Notes under the pieces: generated by a model | What the model saw: the letters and a program-made list of their open reading frames with translations, nothing else | Databases searched by the model: none | What the model was told of the DNA's origin: nothing | DNA from: Chloroflexota bacterium | GTDB lineage: Bacteria > Chloroflexota > Dehalococcoidia > Dehalococcoidales > RBG-16-60-22 | Reading direction: 5' to 3' | Assembly (NCBI GenBank): GCA_016190695.1 | Contig: JACPQC010000006.1 | Coordinates: forward strand, 1-37,657 | Length of the DNA: 37,657 bases | Part shown: positions 958-27,545 of the stretch, piece after piece | Position numbering within the stretch: the stretch's first letter is position 1 | Layout of the letters: the number at the start of each line of letters is the position of its first letter | Position numbers and translations under genes: made by a program

Positions 958-2859
958 ATGCCAGAATCAGGTGGATGGGGCGGCACCGTCCTTCACGTAG
1001 ACCTTACCACGGGCAAGATCGAAAAGGAAAGACCGTCACTGGACTGGTCTCGGAAATTCCTGGGGGGGCGGGGGTTCAATTCAATAAGACTGTTCAACAT
1101 GGTCCAGCCCGATGTGGACGCATTAAGCCCGGAAAATGTCCTCCTCTTCAGTTCCGGACCTCTGGTGGGCACCAAATCACCGGCCTGTTCCCGGCTCACC
1201 GTCTCGGCAAAATCACCGCTGACCGATATCCACGGTGATGCCAACATGGGCGGCTTTTTCGGGGCGGAGATGAAGTTTGCCGGCTATGACCAGATAGTGG
1301 TCACCGGCAAGTCAGAGCGCCCGGTCTGCATCTTCATCAAGGGAGAGGATGTCAAGGTAACTGACGCCTCTCATGTCTGGGGCCGCCAGCGCATCGAGGC
1401 CGAAGAAATAATCACGAAGGATTTCGGCGACCCCAAGGCGAGGGCGGTGAGCATCGGCCCCGCCGGTGAAAAGCTGGTGCGCATCGCCAACGTGATGAGC
1501 GGCCCCAAACGAGCCGCCGGCCGCTGCGGCATGGGCGCGGTCATGGGTTCCAAGAACCTCAAGGCCATCGTGGTGCGGGGCAACAACAAGGTCGCCATCG
1601 CCCGGCCCGACGCCTTCGAGAAGGCCCGCAAAGAGGCTATGGAGATAATGCCCACCACCTGGCAGTACCAGCGCATGCACAAGCATGGCACCCTGGTCAT
1701 CCTTGATTCCACTCATGCCGCCGGCATTGACGGGGTGAGAAACTATTCCACCACCGTGTTCGACCAGGCCCAGAACATCGGCGCAGAGGCCTTTGAAAAG
1801 GACTACATAATCGGCAAGAGGCCCTGCTTTGGCTGCCCTGTCGCCTGCACCCACGCCTACAAGGTCGAATCGGGCGAGTTCGCCGGCACCTGGGGGGAAG
1901 GCCCTGAGTTCGGCATGACCGGCCTGGGGCTCAAATGCGAGATAGGCGACGCCGGCGCCCTGCTCAAGATGAACCAGCTTCTCAACGAGTACGGCATAGA
2001 CTGTGTCAGCGTGCAGCAGATGATCGCCTGGGTTATGGACTGCTATACCCAGGGGCTGCTCGACCGGGAAGACCTGGACGGGCTGACGCCCAATTTCGGC
2101 GATTACCACGCCGCCATCGAACTGATCCACCGGATAGGCAAGCGCGAGGGCATCGGCGATATCCTGGCCGAGGGTGAAAAGCGCGCCCCGGCAATCATGA
2201 AGAAGGGTACCGAGAAGTACATGCACCACGTGAAGGGCATGTCCCCGGTAATCGAGGACCCCCGCGCCGGCAAGCCCTTCGGTCTGGGCTATTACACCTC
2301 CAGCCGCGGCGCCGACCACCTGAGGTCGCTGGGGATGAGCCTCAGCGTGCAGCTCTACCTGAAAGAGACCGGCCAGGAAATGCGCGATGATATCAAGGAC
2401 CCCACCAGCGAGGTGGGCAAAGGCGCGGCCATCAAATGGCTGGAGGACCAGTACGGAGCCGTTGATTCGTTCGGCGGCTGCAAGTTCGTCTACCCCCGCT
2501 GCGGCATAACCGTAGAGCACATGGCCCGGCTCATCTCCGCCGCCACCGGCCTCGATATCAGCAAAGAAGAGCTGTTGCAGATAGGCGAGCGTGTTTATAA
2601 CGTGGAGAAGGCATTTAACTCCAGGCAGGGACTTACCCGTCGGGACGATAACTTCTCTGTGCCGGATAAGTTCACCAAGGAGCCGATCAAAGAAGGCCCG
2701 TTCAAGGACTGCGTGGTTGACCTTGATACTTTCCTGGATGATTACTATACGGCCCGCGGCTGGGACCTGAAATCAGGACTGCCCACCACCGGAAAACTGG
2801 CGGAGCTTGGTCTGCAGGACATAGCCGCGGAACTGGCCAGGTTCCAGGCGGTCGTATAA
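958..2859 (+). CDS. Aldehyde:ferredoxin oxidoreductase (AOR family, tungstopterin)
   Basis: Cytoplasmic tungsten- or molybdenum-pterin enzyme that oxidises aldehydes to carboxylates with ferredoxin as acceptor; the actual substrate cannot be read from sequence. The 633-residue length matches the family (about 600-630). The N-terminal domain opens with [15 protein letters not shown] and continues with KFLGGRGFN, both characteristic. The [4Fe-4S] ligands are C290, C293 and C297 (CFGCPVAC) with the distant fourth at C508 (DSFGGCKF). The pterin/substrate region [13 protein letters not shown] lies at about 310-322. There is no signal peptide. A strong ribosome-binding site (AGGAGGGG, 943-950) fixes the ATG. 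It is the first gene after the transposase and is followed 86 bp later by remA on the same strand. No ferredoxin partner is adjacent. Confidence 0.93.
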
Positions 2860-2945
2860 TGATAACATTCCCCTCCCCAGCCAATGGCCGGCCCGCAGAG
2901 GGCCGTTCCGACGAGGCTGCGGGACAATATGGACGAGGTGCCACA

Positions 2946-3230
2946 ATGTCTATAGAGCTGGTCCACGTTGGATTCGGCAATATGCTTGCCATGAGCAGGG
3001 TCATCGCCATGGCATCACCAAACTCAGCGCCAACCAAGCGCACTATCCAGGAGGGCCGGAACAAGGGACTGCTCATCGATATGACCAGCGGCAGGAGGAC
3101 CAAGGCGGTTATCTTCACCGATAGCGGCCATGTCATCCTGGCTGCCCTGGCCCCGGAGACCATAGCCGGCAGGCTTCAGGTGGGCCGCATACCCCTCAAG
3201 GTCCACGGCGATGACCGGGATGAGCCTTAA
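2946..3230 (+). CDS. remA: RemA/DUF370 family regulatory protein
   Basis: Small DNA-binding regulator family; in Bacillus subtilis RemA activates biofilm matrix and osmoprotection genes, but the role in other phyla is unknown. The 94-residue protein starts at the internal ATG ([15 protein letters not shown]), because family members begin at this point and a GAGGTG precedes it; the 29 upstream in-frame codons are not conserved in character. The typical block with [20 protein letters not shown] and then [18 protein letters not shown] is present. It overlaps the gmk start by 20 bp, the usual remA-gmk pairing. In many bacteria yicC precedes and rpoZ follows this pair; neither is here. Confidence 0.9.
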
Positions 3231-3840
3231 GCCCTTTCTTGAGCCTGGGCCGCTGCTGGTCGTCCTCTCCGGCCCGTCCGGCGCCGGCAAAGATGCGCTG
3301 TTGACCCGGATACGCCAGAGGGGGTTCCCTGTCGAATTCATCACCACCGTGACCACCAGGCAGCAGCGACCGGCGGAGCAGGACTATGTGGACTACCACT
3401 TCACCACCGAAGCAGCCTTCCAGCGCATGCTCGAAAAAAGCGAGCTTCTGGAGTGGGCTAACGTCTACGGCAACTGGTACGGCGTGCCCAAAGGGCCTAT
3501 CAAACAGGCACTGAAACAGGGGCGAGACGCCATCGTCAAGGTGGACGTGCAGGGCGCTGCCACCATAAAGAAACTGGTCCCGGAGGCAGTGTTCATCTTC
3601 CTGACGCCTCCCTCCCTTGAGGAGCTGGCCAGGCGGATAGAAGGACGCCGCACTGAATCGGCGCCGGAACTGGCCCTGCGCTCCCGCACCGCCGAGGCCG
3701 AACTGAAACAGATATACCTGTTCGACTACGTGGTCATCAGCCGCCAGGACCAGGTAGACCGCGCCGCCGCCGAGACCGAGGCCATCATCACCGCCGAGAA
3801 ATGCCGAGTCCACCCCAGGCACATCGTGGTGGATGACTGA
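3211..3840 (+). CDS. gmk: Guanylate kinase
   Basis: Phosphorylates GMP to GDP with ATP, an essential step of guanine nucleotide supply in the cytoplasm. The 209-residue protein has the P-loop GPSGAGKD at 21-28. The GMP-binding region [17 protein letters not shown] spans about 48-64, with both arginines and the DY pair. VYGNWYGVP is at 85-93 and the Walker B-like DVQGA at 112-116. A second in-frame ATG lies nine bases downstream and could be used instead. The gene overlaps remA, so the two are translationally coupled. Its stop lies 11 bp from the stop of a convergent nuclease gene, and rpoZ, the usual next gene, is missing. Confidence 0.95.
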
Positions 3841-3851
3841 TGAAATCTCGG

Positions 3852-4802
3852 TCACACCTCTTCCATGCCGTATTTGAGTTTGAACTTGCCTATCCAATCA
3901 TCGTGACGCCCTGATTCTTCAATGGCTTTGACCACATCCTGGATATCGGCCTGGCCGATCCGGGCCTTGTGCTTTTCAGGAAGAAAACTGAGCAAAAATG
4001 GCATGAGTCCACGTCCTGCCCCCGAAAACGTTGGACTTCTGTTATCGCTCAGCAGGACAAAAGCGCCATCTTTCTTTATGGCGAACAGGACTTCCCTGAA
4101 GAATTGATAGTAGTTGGCCAGTATACAAGTGGAATCGGTCGTTAGCGCCGGCTGCAAGAATCCATATTCTTCTAGAAGGTTCCAGTACTTCCTCCCGATA
4201 TGGTGAAGATAGCATCTGGACAGATTTCCTGCGGGATTGGCCCCCTCGCAGTTCCCCTGCCCAAAGACCGAGCAACCACCAAAACCGTTTTCGGTGAACT
4301 TGCATTCAATGAAGAGGGCACCTAGTTTTTCCGGATTTCCAACCACAAGGTCAATGGAGGTGGGTTGACCTGAATCTTCGTTGAATACGCTACGGTCTTC
4401 GTATTCAAGTACCGCCTGTGTACTTGAGCCTGGCCAGTTCAGTTCTCTTGTAAGCAAGGCACTCTGCAGAGGCTCCAAATCTTCTCTCACGATCAATGGG
4501 CCGACCAAATTAAACAACAGCGCCTGGCTGCTCAAGCCATGATGTACATAATCATGTAAAGCGAAGGTTTTGTCACTTGCAAGACGCTCCTGCTGCTTAT
4601 TCTCGACATAGCGGGCCACTTCCGGCAGGATAATATTGTTGGGCCAATACTTCAGTTCAGCCAGACAGTACTTGTATTTGGGATGAACCTCGCACTGCCG
4701 GTCACTGAACCACCGTTCTGCAGCTATCTTCATTTGTCCTACAAAATGATCTCGTCTCCTAAATGGCCAGGTGCGGGCAAGCTGTCGGCTATTAAACATC
4801 AT
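3852..4802 (-). CDS. Orphan PD-(D/E)XK nuclease, PGN_0703-like putative restriction endonuclease
   Basis: The 316-residue protein resembles the PGN_0703 group of putative restriction endonucleases; this is recognition by eye. The nuclease core is visible: an acidic residue at D151 in SIDLVVGNPEKL and the E-x-K pair at E166/K168 in ALFIECKFTENG, the spacing of a PD-(D/E)XK fold. Upstream are conserved-looking segments such as CEVHPKYKYCLAELKYWPNN and SSQALLFNLVGPL. There is no methyltransferase or specificity subunit nearby, so it may act alone, on modified DNA, or be a remnant of a defence island. The AT content is higher than its neighbours, suggesting transfer. GGAGG sits 3 bp before the first ATG and 6 bp before a second ATG at 4799, which may be the real start. 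A repair role is an alternative. Confidence 0.6.
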   Translation of the reverse strand: MMFNSRQLARTWPFRRRDHFVGQMKIAAERWFSDRQCEVHPKYKYCLAELKYWPNNIILPEVARYVENKQQERLASDKTFALHDYVHHGLSSQALLFNLVGPLIVREDLEPLQSALLTRELNWPGSSTQAVLEYEDRSVFNEDSGQPTSIDLVVGNPEKLGALFIECKFTENGFGGCSVFGQGNCEGANPAGNLSRCYLHHIGRKYWNLLEEYGFLQPALTTDSTCILANYYQFFREVLFAIKKDGAFVLLSDNRSPTFSGAGRGLMPFLLSFLPEKHKARIGQADIQDVVKAIEESGRHDDWIGKFKLKYGMEEV

Positions 4803-19700: not shown

Positions 19701-20441
19701 ATGCGCACGGAAAGGTTTGGCTGGAGGGCCAAGATCGGGGTGATCTCTCCCGGCGGGTTCACGCTGCAGCGCGAGTGGGAAAGCCGGTTGCCGGAAGGGA
19801 TAATCACTCACCAGAGCCTCATGGAGCTGGCCGACAACACGCCGGAAGCGCTGCGCCAGCTCAAGGGAAAGGCTGTCATTGAAGCCACGAAACTGGCCCG
19901 CAGCGAGGCGATAGACATGCTCCTGTTCGCCTGCACCTCTGGCTCTTTTATCGGCGGGCCGGGCTATGACCAGGAGATAATCTCCGAGCTTGAAGCCGTG
20001 AGCGGCCTGCCGGCGACCACCACCGCCACCTCGGTGCTCACCGCCTTCAAGGATATGGGGGTCAAGACGATGGTCATGATCGGCCCGTACCTGGACGAGG
20101 TGATGGACATCGAGAAACGCTTCTTCCAGGACCACGGCGTTGAGACGCTGTATATCAAGGGCATGGGCTACCGCCATACCGCCCAGTATGCCAGGCTGTC
20201 CGAAGAGCGCTATATCTACTACCGCATGGCCATGCAGGCCTGCCAGGCCGCCCCGGAAGCGGATGTAATCTTCGTCACCTGCATGGCCTCGGCCATCGGC
20301 AGCATCGTCGATATGCTGGAGCAGGAGACTGGCAAGCCGGTGGTATCAAGCTGCTCGGCATCGCTCTACGGGGTGTTGAAGAAGCTCGGAGTGCGTGAAC
20401 CAGTCGAAGGCTACGGGCGGCTCCTGAAGATGCCACGCTGA
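19701..20441 (+). CDS. Maleate isomerase / arylmalonate decarboxylase family (Asp/Glu racemase superfamily)
   Basis: The 246-residue protein belongs to the group using two cysteines for isomerisation, racemisation or decarboxylation. The first is Cys78 in LLFACTSGSFIGG and the second Cys194 in IFVTCMASAIGS, in the pseudo-symmetric positions of the fold. TATSVLTAFKDMG (109-120) and the GYxHT-like GYRHT segment also fit maleate cis-trans isomerases. Substrate is not determinable. The start follows AAAGGGGGT. It is downstream of hpf on the same strand, though a functional link is not apparent. Confidence 0.83.
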   Translation: MRTERFGWRAKIGVISPGGFTLQREWESRLPEGIITHQSLMELADNTPEALRQLKGKAVIEATKLARSEAIDMLLFACTSGSFIGGPGYDQEIISELEAVSGLPATTTATSVLTAFKDMGVKTMVMIGPYLDEVMDIEKRFFQDHGVETLYIKGMGYRHTAQYARLSEERYIYYRMAMQACQAAPEADVIFVTCMASAIGSIVDMLEQETGKPVVSSCSASLYGVLKKLGVREPVEGYGRLLKMPR

Positions 20442-21769: not shown

Positions 21770-22300
21770 CTGACTATCCGAGTTTATTATGTCGTTTTCG
21801 ATACCGGCCAGTGGTGGCTGGGACTGGTCGCCTCAGAGCTGGGACTGGTCCAGGGCACCCTCCCCTGCGTCTCCGAAGAGGAGGCTCGCCTTTCCCTGGG
21901 TGACAGCACCGCCCGCGCCCTGTGGCAGCCCGGCCGCTTCCAGCATCTCGTGGAGCAGTTGACGGCATACTTCATCGGCTGTCCGGTTTACTTCCCTGAC
22001 GAACTTGACCTGTCACGGGCTACCCCCTTCCAGCGGCGGGTCTGGCAGGCCGCCCGGCTCATCCCCTATGGCCAGACCCGGAGCTACGCCTGGGTGGCCG
22101 GGCAGGCAGGCGCTCCCCTGGCGGCGCGGGCGGTGGGACAGGCCCTGGGCATGAACCCCCTGCCCGTCATCATCCCCTGTCACCGCGTCCTGGCCAGCGA
22201 CGGCGCAATGGGCGGGTTCACCGGCGGCCTGGAGATGAAACAGCGGTTGCTGGCCCTGGAGCGAGAGGGCATCAGCAAGGCTGGCAGTTGCAGGCATTGA
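21770..22300 (+). CDS. ogt: Methylated-DNA-[protein]-cysteine S-methyltransferase, non-canonical start
   Basis: Suicide repair protein that transfers alkyl groups from O6-alkylguanine to its own cysteine. The C-terminal domain is intact: TPFQRRVWQAARLIPYGQTRSYAWVAG, then the active-site IIPCHRV (Cys codon 22178-22180) and GGFTGGLEMKQRLL. The N-terminal domain (IRVYYVVFDTGQWWLGLVASE...) is encoded upstream of the GTG at 21950. However, no ATG, GTG or TTG lies in frame between the stop at 21740-21742 and 21950. The best start I can offer is CTG at 21770, preceded by GGAGAGG, giving 176 residues. Otherwise the original start has been lost. It converges with radC and overlaps its 3' end by 29 bases. 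Confidence 0.8.
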   Translation: MTIRVYYVVFDTGQWWLGLVASELGLVQGTLPCVSEEEARLSLGDSTARALWQPGRFQHLVEQLTAYFIGCPVYFPDELDLSRATPFQRRVWQAARLIPYGQTRSYAWVAGQAGAPLAARAVGQALGMNPLPVIIPCHRVLASDGAMGGFTGGLEMKQRLLALEREGISKAGSCRH

Positions 22301-23084
22301 ACTGGCAGGCGACGCCATAGGCCGACCTGTCCTCGGAGACCATTGCAACAGCCCTTATCCGCAGGTTGAGGAAACTGTCCTCGTATTTCTCTATCAGCCC
22401 GGCATCGGCAAAGCTGAAATAGCCGTCCCCGCCGATGATGATGTGGTCCAGCACCTTTATCTTCAAGATCATGCCCACATACACCATGTCCCGGGTCTGT
22501 TGCTTGTCGCTGCGGCTGGCGGTTGGGTCGCCGGAAGGGTGGTTGTGCACCAAGATCATCGCCGAGACATCGCGCTTCATGGCGTTGTCAACCACCTCGC
22601 GCGGGTCGACCACGGTGCTGCGCCGGTTGCCCTCGGACAGGTCAGTGGTATCTATGATATGGTTGCGGTGGTCCAGGTAAATGACCTTCAACACCTCCCG
22701 CTTCAGGTCCCGCATGGAGTAATTGAGATAGTCAAATATCTCCCTGGACGACTGGTAAACGGGCCTGGCCACGATCTTCTGTTTGAGCACCTCCATAGGC
22801 AATGCGTGCAGCACCTTGATATGTACGATGGCGGCCGGGTCCACGCTGGCCCGCTGCAGTTCTTCAGGCGACGCCGACAGGAAATCGCTCAGGCTTCCGA
22901 AATGGTCGAGGTATTCCACCGCCAGCCCCCGGGCCCTCCGGGCGGACATGGTCAGGCCAAGCAAAAGCTCGATCACCTCACGGTCAGCGAACCCGTCAAA
23001 CCCCGACCTTATGAACTTCTCCTGGAGCGGAAGGACTCGCCCCGCAGTTTTCTTTTCCTGACGCTGGTTATCACGTTTGTTCAA
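22272..23084 (-). CDS. radC: RadC family JAMM-domain protein, paralogue 1 (downstream copy)
   Basis: RadC-family proteins carry a JAMM metalloprotease-like domain; their molecular role remains unclear. I chose TTG at 23084 (270 residues) because GGAGGAGG stands six bases before it; an ATG at 23156 adds 24 unconserved residues. The MPN/JAMM motif VHNHPSGDPTASRSD (His180, His182, Asp193) is complete. The N-terminal helix-hairpin-helix position reads SVDPAAIVHIKVLHAL and has lost the GxG hairpin seen in the upstream copy. It follows its paralogue by 191 bp and has an extended -10 promoter of its own. It ends with a Cys-rich tail (CQFNACNCQPC). Confidence 0.88.
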   Translation of the reverse strand: MNKRDNQRQEKKTAGRVLPLQEKFIRSGFDGFADREVIELLLGLTMSARRARGLAVEYLDHFGSLSDFLSASPEELQRASVDPAAIVHIKVLHALPMEVLKQKIVARPVYQSSREIFDYLNYSMRDLKREVLKVIYLDHRNHIIDTTDLSEGNRRSTVVDPREVVDNAMKRDVSAMILVHNHPSGDPTASRSDKQQTRDMVYVGMILKIKVLDHIIIGGDGYFSFADAGLIEKYEDSFLNLRIRAVAMVSEDRSAYGVACQFNACNCQPC

Positions 23085-23177
23085 GCGAGGCCTCCTCCGG
23101 CGAGGAAAATCATTAAGAATACCGGTATGATGCCCAGCCCAGCCAGCACTTCCCATTTCCCCGGAGCAATTACGAAC

Positions 23178-23275: not shown

Positions 23276-24115
23276 TCACTGCGACGGGCCTGGTGATTGC
23301 CTGGCCCGGTATAGCCTGCGCTTTGCCTCGGCGGTGCCCCGCACTTTCATGTTCAGGTAATCGATCTCGTACTCCTCGATGAGGCCTTCACCGGCAAAGC
23401 TGAAGAACCGGTTATCGCCAATGACGATGTGGTCCAGCACCTTTATCCTCATCACCTTGCCGGCATAGACCAACTCCCTGGTAAGCTCCCTGTCCTGGGA
23501 ACTTGGCTCAGGGCTGCCCGAGGGATGATTGTGCACGCCGACCACGGCAACGGCGCTGTTGCTGATAGCCCTGGAAACGACATCGCGGATGGATACCGAG
23601 CTGCTGTTGACCGAGCCCTGGAACAGGTCTTCCACGTCGATTATCTGGTTCTGGGCGTCAAGGTAGATGACCTTGAAGACCTCTCGTTTCAGGTCGCGCA
23701 TGGAATGGTACAGATAGTCGAAGACCTCCTGAGAGGACTGGAGCACCGGCCTGTCCAGTATCCTGGACTTCAGGAATTCCCTGGCCACCTCGTGCACCAG
23801 CTTGATGCCGAAGGCGTTGTGCGGGCCGATGCCGTCTATCTCCTGGAGTTCCCGGGGGCTGGCCTCCATGACCCCCCGCAGGGTCTTGAAGCGCCTGATG
23901 GCCTCTTTAGCCGCCGCCTTGCAATCGCGGCGCGGCGTCCCCAGGCTAAGCAGCAGCTCCACTATCTCGTAGTCATGGAAGGAGGCCAGACCGGACTTGA
24001 GGAACTTCTCACGCAACCTGCGGCGGTGCCCTGTTTGCAGGCCGGCGCTACTCCTGGCTTCTCCTGCGGCGCTCGTCTCGGCAGCGTCAGGTTGTTGACC
24101 GGGAACCTGGCTCAT
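23276..24115 (-). CDS. radC: RadC family JAMM-domain protein, paralogue 2 (upstream copy)
   Basis: The 279-residue protein has a variable, Ala/Gln-rich N-terminus (1-28) before RRRLREKFLKSGLASFHDYEIVELLL. An intact helix-hairpin-helix IDGIGPHNAFGIKL is at 93-106, and the JAMM motif is VHNHPSGSPEPSSQD (194-208). The start ATG follows GGGAGAG. The two copies align through most of their length (for example SMRDLKREV, IKVLDHI(V/I)IG, GLIE(E/K)YE), so they arose by duplication. This copy has the more complete set of family motifs and a strong promoter. Confidence 0.92.
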   Translation of the reverse strand: MSQVPGQQPDAAETSAAGEARSSAGLQTGHRRRLREKFLKSGLASFHDYEIVELLLSLGTPRRDCKAAAKEAIRRFKTLRGVMEASPRELQEIDGIGPHNAFGIKLVHEVAREFLKSRILDRPVLQSSQEVFDYLYHSMRDLKREVFKVIYLDAQNQIIDVEDLFQGSVNSSSVSIRDVVSRAISNSAVAVVGVHNHPSGSPEPSSQDRELTRELVYAGKVMRIKVLDHIVIGDNRFFSFAGEGLIEEYEIDYLNMKVRGTAEAKRRLYRARQSPGPSQ

Positions 24116-25763: not shown

Positions 25764-26456
25764 TTGGACGAGATAAAGCAAACTCTAAAGGAAGTGGTCC
25801 AGGCTATGGCGCCGGTGATACTGGCTGTCCTGGCGCTGCAAATTTTCATCGTCAGGATGCCGCTGCCGGAAATCATCAAGTTCCTTACCGGCGCGGCCAT
25901 GGCTACCGTGGGCATGATGCTCTTCCTGCTTGGCACCCGCATCGGCTTGCTGCCGGTGGGTGAAGCGGTTGGCGCCGAGTTGCCCCGCCGGGGATCTGTA
26001 GTATATATTATGGCTATTTCATTTCTGGTCGGGTTCGCTGTGACCATCGCCGAGCCGGACGTGATCGTGCTCACCAGCCAGGTGGATGCCGTTTCCCAGG
26101 GGGCGGTCGGGAGGGGACTGCTGGTCTATATCATCGCCGTAGGCGTTGCCTTCTTCGTAGCGATGGCCATGCTGCGCGTTGTCTCCGGGTTACCCATAAC
26201 TTACCTGCTGGCCGGCGGATATGTCTGTGTACTGGTGCTCTCGTTTTTCACCCCTTCCCGGTTCGTCGCCGTTGCCTTTGACGCTGGCGGCGTCACCACG
26301 GGGCCGATGACGGTGCCGGTCATCCTGGCGCTGGGGATTGGCTTCAGTTCGGTCCTGGCGGGAAAATCAGCGCTGTCCGATGGCTTCGGTCTCATCGGGC
26401 TGGCCTCTATCGGCCCCATAATCGGCGTGATGCTCATGGGGATGGTGCTGGGGTGA
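25764..26456 (+). CDS. DUF1538 membrane protein, first half
   Basis: Polytopic inner-membrane protein of 230 residues, resembling DUF1538; a transport role is suspected in the family but unproven. About six to seven hydrophobic segments are visible. Motifs shared with the next gene are LLPVGEAVG (62-70), the intramembrane acidic pair at E97-P-D99 (AEPDV), FDAGGVTTGPM (172-182) and SDGFGLIGL (205-213). These probably form the active site or pore. No ATG or GTG is available; the TTG at 25764 has GGAG six bases upstream. Its stop overlaps the next start (GTGA), so the two are made together. Confidence 0.85.
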   Translation: MDEIKQTLKEVVQAMAPVILAVLALQIFIVRMPLPEIIKFLTGAAMATVGMMLFLLGTRIGLLPVGEAVGAELPRRGSVVYIMAISFLVGFAVTIAEPDVIVLTSQVDAVSQGAVGRGLLVYIIAVGVAFFVAMAMLRVVSGLPITYLLAGGYVCVLVLSFFTPSRFVAVAFDAGGVTTGPMTVPVILALGIGFSSVLAGKSALSDGFGLIGLASIGPIIGVMLMGMVLG

Positions 26457-27256
26457 ACGATATCGCCGTGCTGGACGGGGCAGGCCAGGTCTTCCTCCAT
26501 GTATTGAGGTCGCTGCTGCCATTGCTTCTCCTGTTCCTGGTATTCCAGATAGTGTTCTTGAGGCTGCCCGCCGGCTATGTGTTTGCCCTGCTCAAGGGCA
26601 TGCTGCTGGCCTTCATCGGGCTGGCCCTCTTTCTGCAGGGAGTACGGGTGGGTTTTCTGCCTGTGGGCACGGCGATGGGCGAAATGCTGGGGGCTATTGA
26701 GCACAAGTGGTCGCTGGTGCCTCTGGGCCTTTTCATGGGGTTCCTGTCCACCTTCAGCGAGCCGGCGGTGCGGATACTGTGCCGGCAGGTAGAAGAGTCC
26801 TCCAGCGGCTTTATTCGCAAATCGCTGGTGCTGTACACCATATCGCTGGGAGTAGCCATGCTGGTGGGACTGAGTGTGGTCAAGATTATCTACGGGTTCC
26901 CGTTCCTCTGGATCATCATACCCGGTTACGTGGCTGCGATGGCGCTGTTATGGTTCAGCGACCGCACCTTCGCCTCTATCGCTTTCGATGCCGGGGGCGT
27001 CGCTACCGGGCCGATGGCGGTAACGTTCTTGCTGGCGATGGTGCTGGGAATAGCATCCTCGATAGAAGGCAGAAGCCCTATCACTGACGGCTTTGGCCTG
27101 ATTGCGCTGATAGCACTGGCCCCGATACTCTCGGTAATGCTGCTGGGGCTGGTATTCCGCATAAAACTCAAACAAATGGAGGTGCGCGAAGATGGGGGAC
27201 AACAAGGCGCTGATAGTGACCATAGTGAGGAAGGGCTGGGGCAACCAGGTAATTGA
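26453..27256 (+). CDS. DUF1538 membrane protein, second half
   Basis: A 267-residue paralogue of the preceding protein, with the same pattern of hydrophobic segments. Its motifs are FLPVGTAMG (68-76), SEPAV (102-106), FDAGGVATGPM (178-188) and TDGFGLIAL (211-219). DUF1538 also occurs as two repeats in one chain, so the two genes probably encode the halves of a heterodimer. The start is GTG within GTGA. The last ~21 residues (EDGGQQGADSDHSEEG...) are hydrophilic and are encoded in the region overlapping the PII gene in another frame. This tail faces the cytoplasm if the membrane core ends at about residue 236. Confidence 0.85.
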   Translation: MNDIAVLDGAGQVFLHVLRSLLPLLLLFLVFQIVFLRLPAGYVFALLKGMLLAFIGLALFLQGVRVGFLPVGTAMGEMLGAIEHKWSLVPLGLFMGFLSTFSEPAVRILCRQVEESSSGFIRKSLVLYTISLGVAMLVGLSVVKIIYGFPFLWIIIPGYVAAMALLWFSDRTFASIAFDAGGVATGPMAVTFLLAMVLGIASSIEGRSPITDGFGLIALIALAPILSVMLLGLVFRIKLKQMEVREDGGQQGADSDHSEEGLGQPGN

Positions 27257-27545
27257 GGCCTCCCTCAAGGCCGGGGCTGAAGGCGGGACCATCATCTTTG
27301 GCCGGGGCGTAGGCATTCATGAACAGCAGAAGCTGATGGGGATCCCGATTGAGCCGGAGAAAGAGATCATACTGTCGGTGATATCGCGCGACAAGGAAGA
27401 CAATGTCCTTTCCGGGATTATCAAGGCAGCTTGCCTGGACAAACCCGGGGCAGGCATCACCTTCGTCATCCCGGTAGAAAAGGTGGCAGGGATAGTCCAT
27501 GCCCTGGTCAGCGGGCAGTGTGAGACCGAAGGCACCGCGCTATAG
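27192..27545 (+). CDS. PII-family (GlnB/GlnK-like) signalling protein
   Basis: A 117-residue trimeric-type PII protein that should bind nucleotides and regulate a partner. The start MGDNKALIVTIVRKGWGNQVIEA and GAEGGTIIFGRGVG fit the first strand-helix unit. The T-loop is short (GIHEQQKLMGIPIEP) and has no uridylylatable Tyr as in GlnB. EKEIILSVISRDKEDNVLSGI and GAGITFVIPVEKVAGIV form the second unit. GGAGGTG about eight bases upstream sets the ATG. The gene overlaps the upstream membrane gene by 65 bp in another frame. The context indicates it senses a metabolite and gates the DUF1538 pair rather than AmtB, which is absent. Confidence 0.85.
   Translation: MGDNKALIVTIVRKGWGNQVIEASLKAGAEGGTIIFGRGVGIHEQQKLMGIPIEPEKEIILSVISRDKEDNVLSGIIKAACLDKPGAGITFVIPVEKVAGIVHALVSGQCETEGTAL

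Follow-up and report, generated by a model that had tools for sequence, protein, structure and literature searches.

UmpAB of Halomonas zhaodongensis is a pair of DUF1538 proteins described in 2017 as a heteromeric Na+(Li+, K+)/H+ antiporter with an optimum at pH 9 (PMC5484666). It was reported as a heterodimer, a clone carrying only umpA and umpB restored the growth of E. coli, and a PII gene is nowhere mentioned in that paper (PMC5484666). Control of transporters by PII proteins is known from other families, with precedents in T-loop insertion (GlnK-AmtB) and conformational locking (SbtB-SbtA) (PMC10710835, PMC8352866). A 2023 review names ammonium, nitrate/nitrite, urea, and bicarbonate transporters as PII-controlled, and the PII-regulated transporters are so far said to act as trimers (PMC10710835). 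Among open-access journal papers, our searches met none that gives DUF1538 or UmpAB a PII partner. Gene pairs of a PII protein and a transporter are a known kind; the UmpAB-linked PII subfamily, paired with this transporter, appears to be new.

The window, by which we mean the whole stretch of 37,657 nucleotides analyzed here, contains three overlapping genes on the forward strand. The first encodes a UmpA-like DUF1538 protein, A (25764-26456, TTG start, 230 aa). The second, in the UmpB position, encodes DUF1538 protein B, with a hydrophilic C terminus (26453-27256, GTG start, 267 aa; overlap with A of 4 nt). The third is the UmpAB-linked PII-family gene (27192-27545, ATG start, 117 aa), which overlaps B by 65 nt, so that the stop of B at 27256 falls within it. 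Just 5′ of its ATG, inside the end of gene B, we read from the sequence a ribosome-binding-like motif, GGAGGT (27178-27183, forward strand). In Pfam, A and B each match the full DUF1538 domain (PF07556; 7e-72 and 241.6 bits for A, 7.9e-68 and 228.3 bits for B), and the third protein matches P-II (PF00543; 1.6e-7, 32 bits against a gathering cut-off of 25). Open reading frames and Pfam thus agree with the preliminary description, which had placed two homologous DUF1538 membrane proteins and a PII-family gene here; the motifs that it had pointed out (FDAGG(V)xTGPM, DGFGLI, and an acidic-Pro pair) are all present, the pair being Glu97-Pro98 of A. A divergent response regulator gene lies 5′ of the operon and a DUF1015 gene and ribF lie 3′, with no amt or gln neighbor seen within the window. 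The genome itself (a 1.34-Mb draft, 70% complete) gave no DUF1538 or PII matches beyond this trio.

Elsewhere in the window, we note a RemA-like gene that overlaps a guanylate kinase gene (2859-3840, forward strand), a REase-ARP type PD-(D/E)XK restriction endonuclease gene (3852-4802, reverse strand; Pfam PF22558, 3.7e-50), and a gene for an arylmalonate decarboxylase-family protein (19701-20441, forward strand; Pfam Amdase). Two adjacent RadC-like genes (22272-23156 and 23276-24115, reverse strand) were also seen, the first with a Pfam RadC-like JAB domain and the second homologous by eye.

Like Halomonas UmpAB, the window has two homologous DUF1538 proteins whose genes overlap; the two systems share conserved acidic, glycine, and proline residues, and in both the B protein is the longer one and has a hydrophilic C terminus. 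Unlike the Halomonas pair, the window proteins score only ∼100-155 bits on the NCBIfam UmpA and UmpB equivalogs (NF041627 and NF041628), whose cut-offs are 490 and 500: A has 154.3 bits on UmpA, and B has 116.7 bits on UmpA and 101.2 bits on UmpB. A closer branch (loci L006, L008, and L114), which also has a PII gene, has A proteins with 352-376 bits on UmpA, again below the cut-off, and the identity between the two branches is ∼37%. Sequence comparison places the window pair on a distant branch within the UmpAB (DUF1538) family, and antiport would be the best guess for this pair. The transporter had initially been called uncharacterized and its substrate unknown; this is outdated, as the Halomonas DUF1538 pair is an antiporter of Na+, Li+, or K+ against H+ (PMC5484666).

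An alignment of 13 sequences shows residues Glu97, Pro98, Asp173, Gly175, and Gly209 of A to be invariant; Glu97-Pro98 and Asp173 fall within its two conserved motifs. For a naturally fused A-B protein (L064, of a Balneolia draft genome), a confident structural model was obtained (pLDDT 91.5, pTM 0.90). It has predicted helix breaks at Glu100-Pro101 and shortly after Asp178-Ser-Gly-Gly; these residues are mostly invariant in 41 fusions. A structure search with this model returned no PDB match with E < 0.001 that would indicate a known transporter fold (best E = 0.03, TM ∼0.15), and no convincing sequence relatives of DUF1538 were found in the PDB.

Since the window proteins fall well below the equivalog cut-offs, the transported ion could differ. 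Because the window pair is a distant branch, PII might be a true partner of a pair that moves something other than Na+/K+ and H+, an anion for example, or that forms a channel. The gap in UmpA scores, the low identity between the branches, and a fold matching no known transporter in the PDB all leave room for such a substrate, as does the fact that, as far as we found, only one DUF1538 pair has been assayed. Against it, both DUF1538 branches keep the acidic and glycine motifs without variation, and some loci, including some of the window branch, adjoin Na_H_Exchanger, TrkA_N, or TrkH genes, neighbors that fit a role in cation homeostasis. We regard a different substrate as unlikely.

To what extent the PII gene accompanies DUF1538 was assessed in loci from 400 Chloroflexota genomes and near relatives, in the best 80 loci from the contigs of ∼85,000 species (ranked by similarity to the window protein), in plasmid records, and in 198 genomes from the phylum to which a Pseudodesulfovibrio belongs, all from outside the Gammaproteobacteria, the group of Halomonas. 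Counting as assessable the loci with enough DNA downstream of DUF1538, a PII gene is adjacent in 124 of 126 (by source, 34/34, 75/77, 7/7, 7/7, and 1/1), a count that includes the best-80 scan, which is not an unbiased sample of the DUF1538 family. Such a conserved gene pairing is what is expected of a PII-gated transporter pair, and it runs counter to the possibility, raised beforehand as a refutation, that DUF1538 pairs mostly occur without PII. The linked loci span Chloroflexota, Bacillota, Desulfobacterota, archaea, spirochaetes, Balneolota, proteobacteria, and plasmids. The two exceptions are the bacilli Metabacillus lacus and Sutcliffiella deserti, where we found no linked-type PII anywhere in the genome, only canonical PII. 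A further locus, not among the 126 (L124, genome G393), has a broken DUF1538 frame and lacks a neighboring PII, which would fit a loss of both together. The plasmid records with the operon (L131, L132, L133, and L178-L181) come from Methylocystis, Chelativorans, Paraclostridium, Peptoclostridium, Acetoanaerobium, Vescimonas, and Subdoligranulum.

The association also holds in the reverse direction. We searched the 400 Chloroflexota genomes used above with a profile of the linked PIIs. Its 36 strong subfamily matches (70-179 bits) are without exception neighbors of DUF1538, and PIIs away from DUF1538 scored ≤38 bits; two further weak matches are also linked, being fragments from a contig end or a broken gene. 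Among 12 genomes of other phyla, every strong match is DUF1538-linked, including a second locus in Breznakiella. Canonical PIIs are present separately in several carrier genomes and have low scores on this profile. As judged from gene neighborhoods, this two-way exclusivity of PII and DUF1538 is far beyond chance adjacency. Together, the adjacency and the confinement of the subfamily to DUF1538 give the dedicated regulatory link good genomic support, and of the original proposal of a dedicated sensor for an uncharacterized transporter, it is this first part that is supported and the second, given UmpAB (PMC5484666), that is not.

The three proteins also appear to have diverged in concert. Over 109 loci, the correlation of identity distances is 0.96 for A-B and 0.725 for both A-PII and B-PII, against a permutation maximum of ∼0.08, these correlations taking no account of species relatedness. 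More telling are two operon subtypes, which cross phyla together and both of which are held by Chloroflexota: The window A protein is 54%-57% identical to proteins of Methanothrix and Pseudodesulfovibrio and 37% identical to the other Chloroflexota type. The PII sequences split in the same way as the A proteins of the two types, so the trio seems, at the level of sequence, to move as a unit.

The layout of the genes is variable. In most Clostridia, DUF1538-DUF1538 and PII-PII are both fusions; in many Bacilli, A and B are separate genes and occur with PII-PII; other carriers have single genes. In one draft Chloroflexota genome (L119), DUF1538-DUF1538-PII form one open frame of 745 aa, followed by a second PII gene; this Rosetta-type fusion is a single case from a 600-contig draft, in which an assembly error is possible and the PII part is not recognized by Pfam alone. 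Two genomes of the Desulfobacterota-type sample have DUF1538 fusions of 710-736 aa (L168:1456-3663 and L169:1432-3561, reverse strand) that have two additional segments, one separating the halves and one within the second DUF1538. The neighboring protein in these two (374-386 aa) may hold three PII-like domains, a weak reading in that two of the three domains score 6-27 bits and Pfam recognizes at most one, below its cut-off.

Operon neighbors need not bind one another, and canonical PII proteins have several targets. The PII protein might be coexpressed with the transporter without touching it and have its target elsewhere, such as an enzyme or a regulator responding to the same stress. Against this, the gene layouts around the trio differ among the 13 loci inspected, and so no third conserved partner is seen. 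The exclusive association with DUF1538 across phyla, the fusions (including the one with a PII in the same open frame as DUF1538), and the match to the pattern of known PII-transporter pairs likewise speak against it. We consider action without contact improbable.

The PII protein itself is diverged. Its T-loop (GRGVGIHEQQKLMGIPIEPEKE) is ∼5 residues shorter than that of GlnB, and Ile54 aligns with the Tyr51 column, which bears out the earlier observation of a short T-loop lacking the uridylylation tyrosine. At the columns of Lys90, Arg101, Arg103, and Gln39, it has Ile, Gly, Val, and His, respectively. We take Lys90, Arg101, and Arg103 to be contacts of the ATP phosphates, Gln39 to be a 2-oxoglutarate/Mg residue, and Tyr51 to be the uridylylation site. 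In an alignment of 175 linked domains with seven canonical PIIs and E. coli GlnB, the Tyr51, Gln39, Lys90, and Arg101 positions are replaced across the linked family: Column 90 is I/V/L/F in ∼94%, and Gly occupies column 101 in 87%. Column 103 varies, with Arg kept in 13%. The Lys58 column is Lys in the window PII, and K (74%) or R (20%) in the linked family, whose T-loop motif is (G)RGxGxxE. The AlphaFold model of the window PII (pLDDT 84.5) has a PII fold, and its best Foldseek matches in the PDB are PII/GlnK proteins (E ∼1e-5, probability 1.00), with TM-scores of only 0.5-0.6 on the window PII as query. Given the PII-like predicted fold and the loss of canonical residues, the window PII is, on model and alignment, a member of the PII superfamily and not a canonical GlnB/GlnK.

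An ordinary nitrogen-regulatory GlnB or GlnK that lies beside a membrane gene by chance, as the Pfam P-II assignment, the GlnB/GlnK fold relatives in the PDB, and the public annotation of linked PIIs as "P-II family nitrogen regulator" might suggest, is very hard to reconcile with the residues lost across the linked family (Lys90, Arg101, Gln39, and Tyr51, on which we rejected it), with the separate, low-scoring canonical PIIs in several of the same genomes, and with a window in which neither amt nor gln adjoins the operon.

The closest solved sequence to the linked-family profile is PDB 9p1x (E = 5e-8), which shares a GRG-type start of the T-loop and, unlike the linked PIIs, keeps the canonical GDGRIFV B-loop. 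The entry says only P-II family; from its sequence, we take it to be NifI-like. The arrangement in the window resembles that of GlnK-AmtB in that a PII-family gene adjoins a membrane transporter gene. It differs in that the transporter is of another family and in that the PII, unlike GlnK, has neither the uridylylation tyrosine nor Gln39, Lys90, Arg101, and Arg103, besides its shorter T-loop. It also resembles the cyanobacterial bicarbonate transporter system SbtB-SbtA, where a diverged PII is dedicated to one Na+-coupled transporter (PMC8352866), although here the partner is DUF1538. SbtB sequences match the linked-family profile weakly, over residues 10-46 only, and neither this match nor the DUF1538 partner identifies the window PII as an SbtB.

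We think it likely that the operon codes for an UmpAB-family (DUF1538) antiporter of two subunits, which exchanges monovalent cations for protons, together with its own PII-family regulator. The best reading is that this dedicated PII would bind the cytoplasmic face of UmpAB and gate cation/H+ exchange. A and B would form the transport unit in the membrane; in either subunit, the acidic residues at the two helix breaks (the Glu-Pro and Asp-x-Gly-Gly motifs) are candidate ion or proton sites. In the cytoplasm, PII would be a trimer, or a pseudo-trimer where it is duplicated or fused; by analogy with GlnK-AmtB and SbtB-SbtA, its short T-loops may dock on the cytoplasmic face of A-B, and it would hold or release the antiporter according to an intracellular signal. 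As Halomonas UmpAB works in E. coli without a reported PII gene, PII would modulate transport without belonging to the transport path; most likely, it would be a brake and not an essential subunit. The binding of PII, the sign of control, the ligand, and the stoichiometry are what we infer here. Counting against this reading, the known PII targets are said to be trimers (PMC10710835), as opposed to the reported UmpAB heterodimer, and the two bacilli lack an adjacent PII.

Since the ligand pocket of this PII differs from the canonical one, the signal is probably not MgATP and 2-oxoglutarate sensed as in canonical PII; a different nucleotide or a ligand linked to ions or pH is likelier. To our knowledge, some carriers (Campylobacterales and alphaproteobacteria) are not known to make c-di-AMP, and we therefore think it an unlikely universal ligand. 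Searching Rfam for a riboswitch as a clue to the signal, we found none upstream of the operon in the window or in 32 DUF1538 loci; nothing in the window scored above threshold, and an M-box at L059 lies downstream of the operon.

These results suggest that the UmpAB-linked PII is a widespread and apparently undescribed cytoplasmic regulator of the salt and pH balance of the cell. The broader proposition, which we hold with slightly more confidence than doubt, is that a whole PII subfamily with a remodeled pocket, repeatedly duplicated or fused, solely controls a cation/proton antiporter whose fold has no match in the PDB. The linked PII is the sole PII found in Enterococcus lactis and in the window's own draft genome. 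A PII dedicated to a Na+/K+-H+ antiporter would explain a large set of genes annotated as "P-II family nitrogen regulator." It would predict that UmpAB is arranged as a trimer or else that PII docks in a new geometry, and it would go against the view that only trimeric transporters come under PII control (PMC10710835). If true, it would tie the PII family to salt and pH homeostasis, and PII signaling in bacteria and archaea would then reach beyond nitrogen and carbon to the homeostasis of sodium, potassium, and pH.
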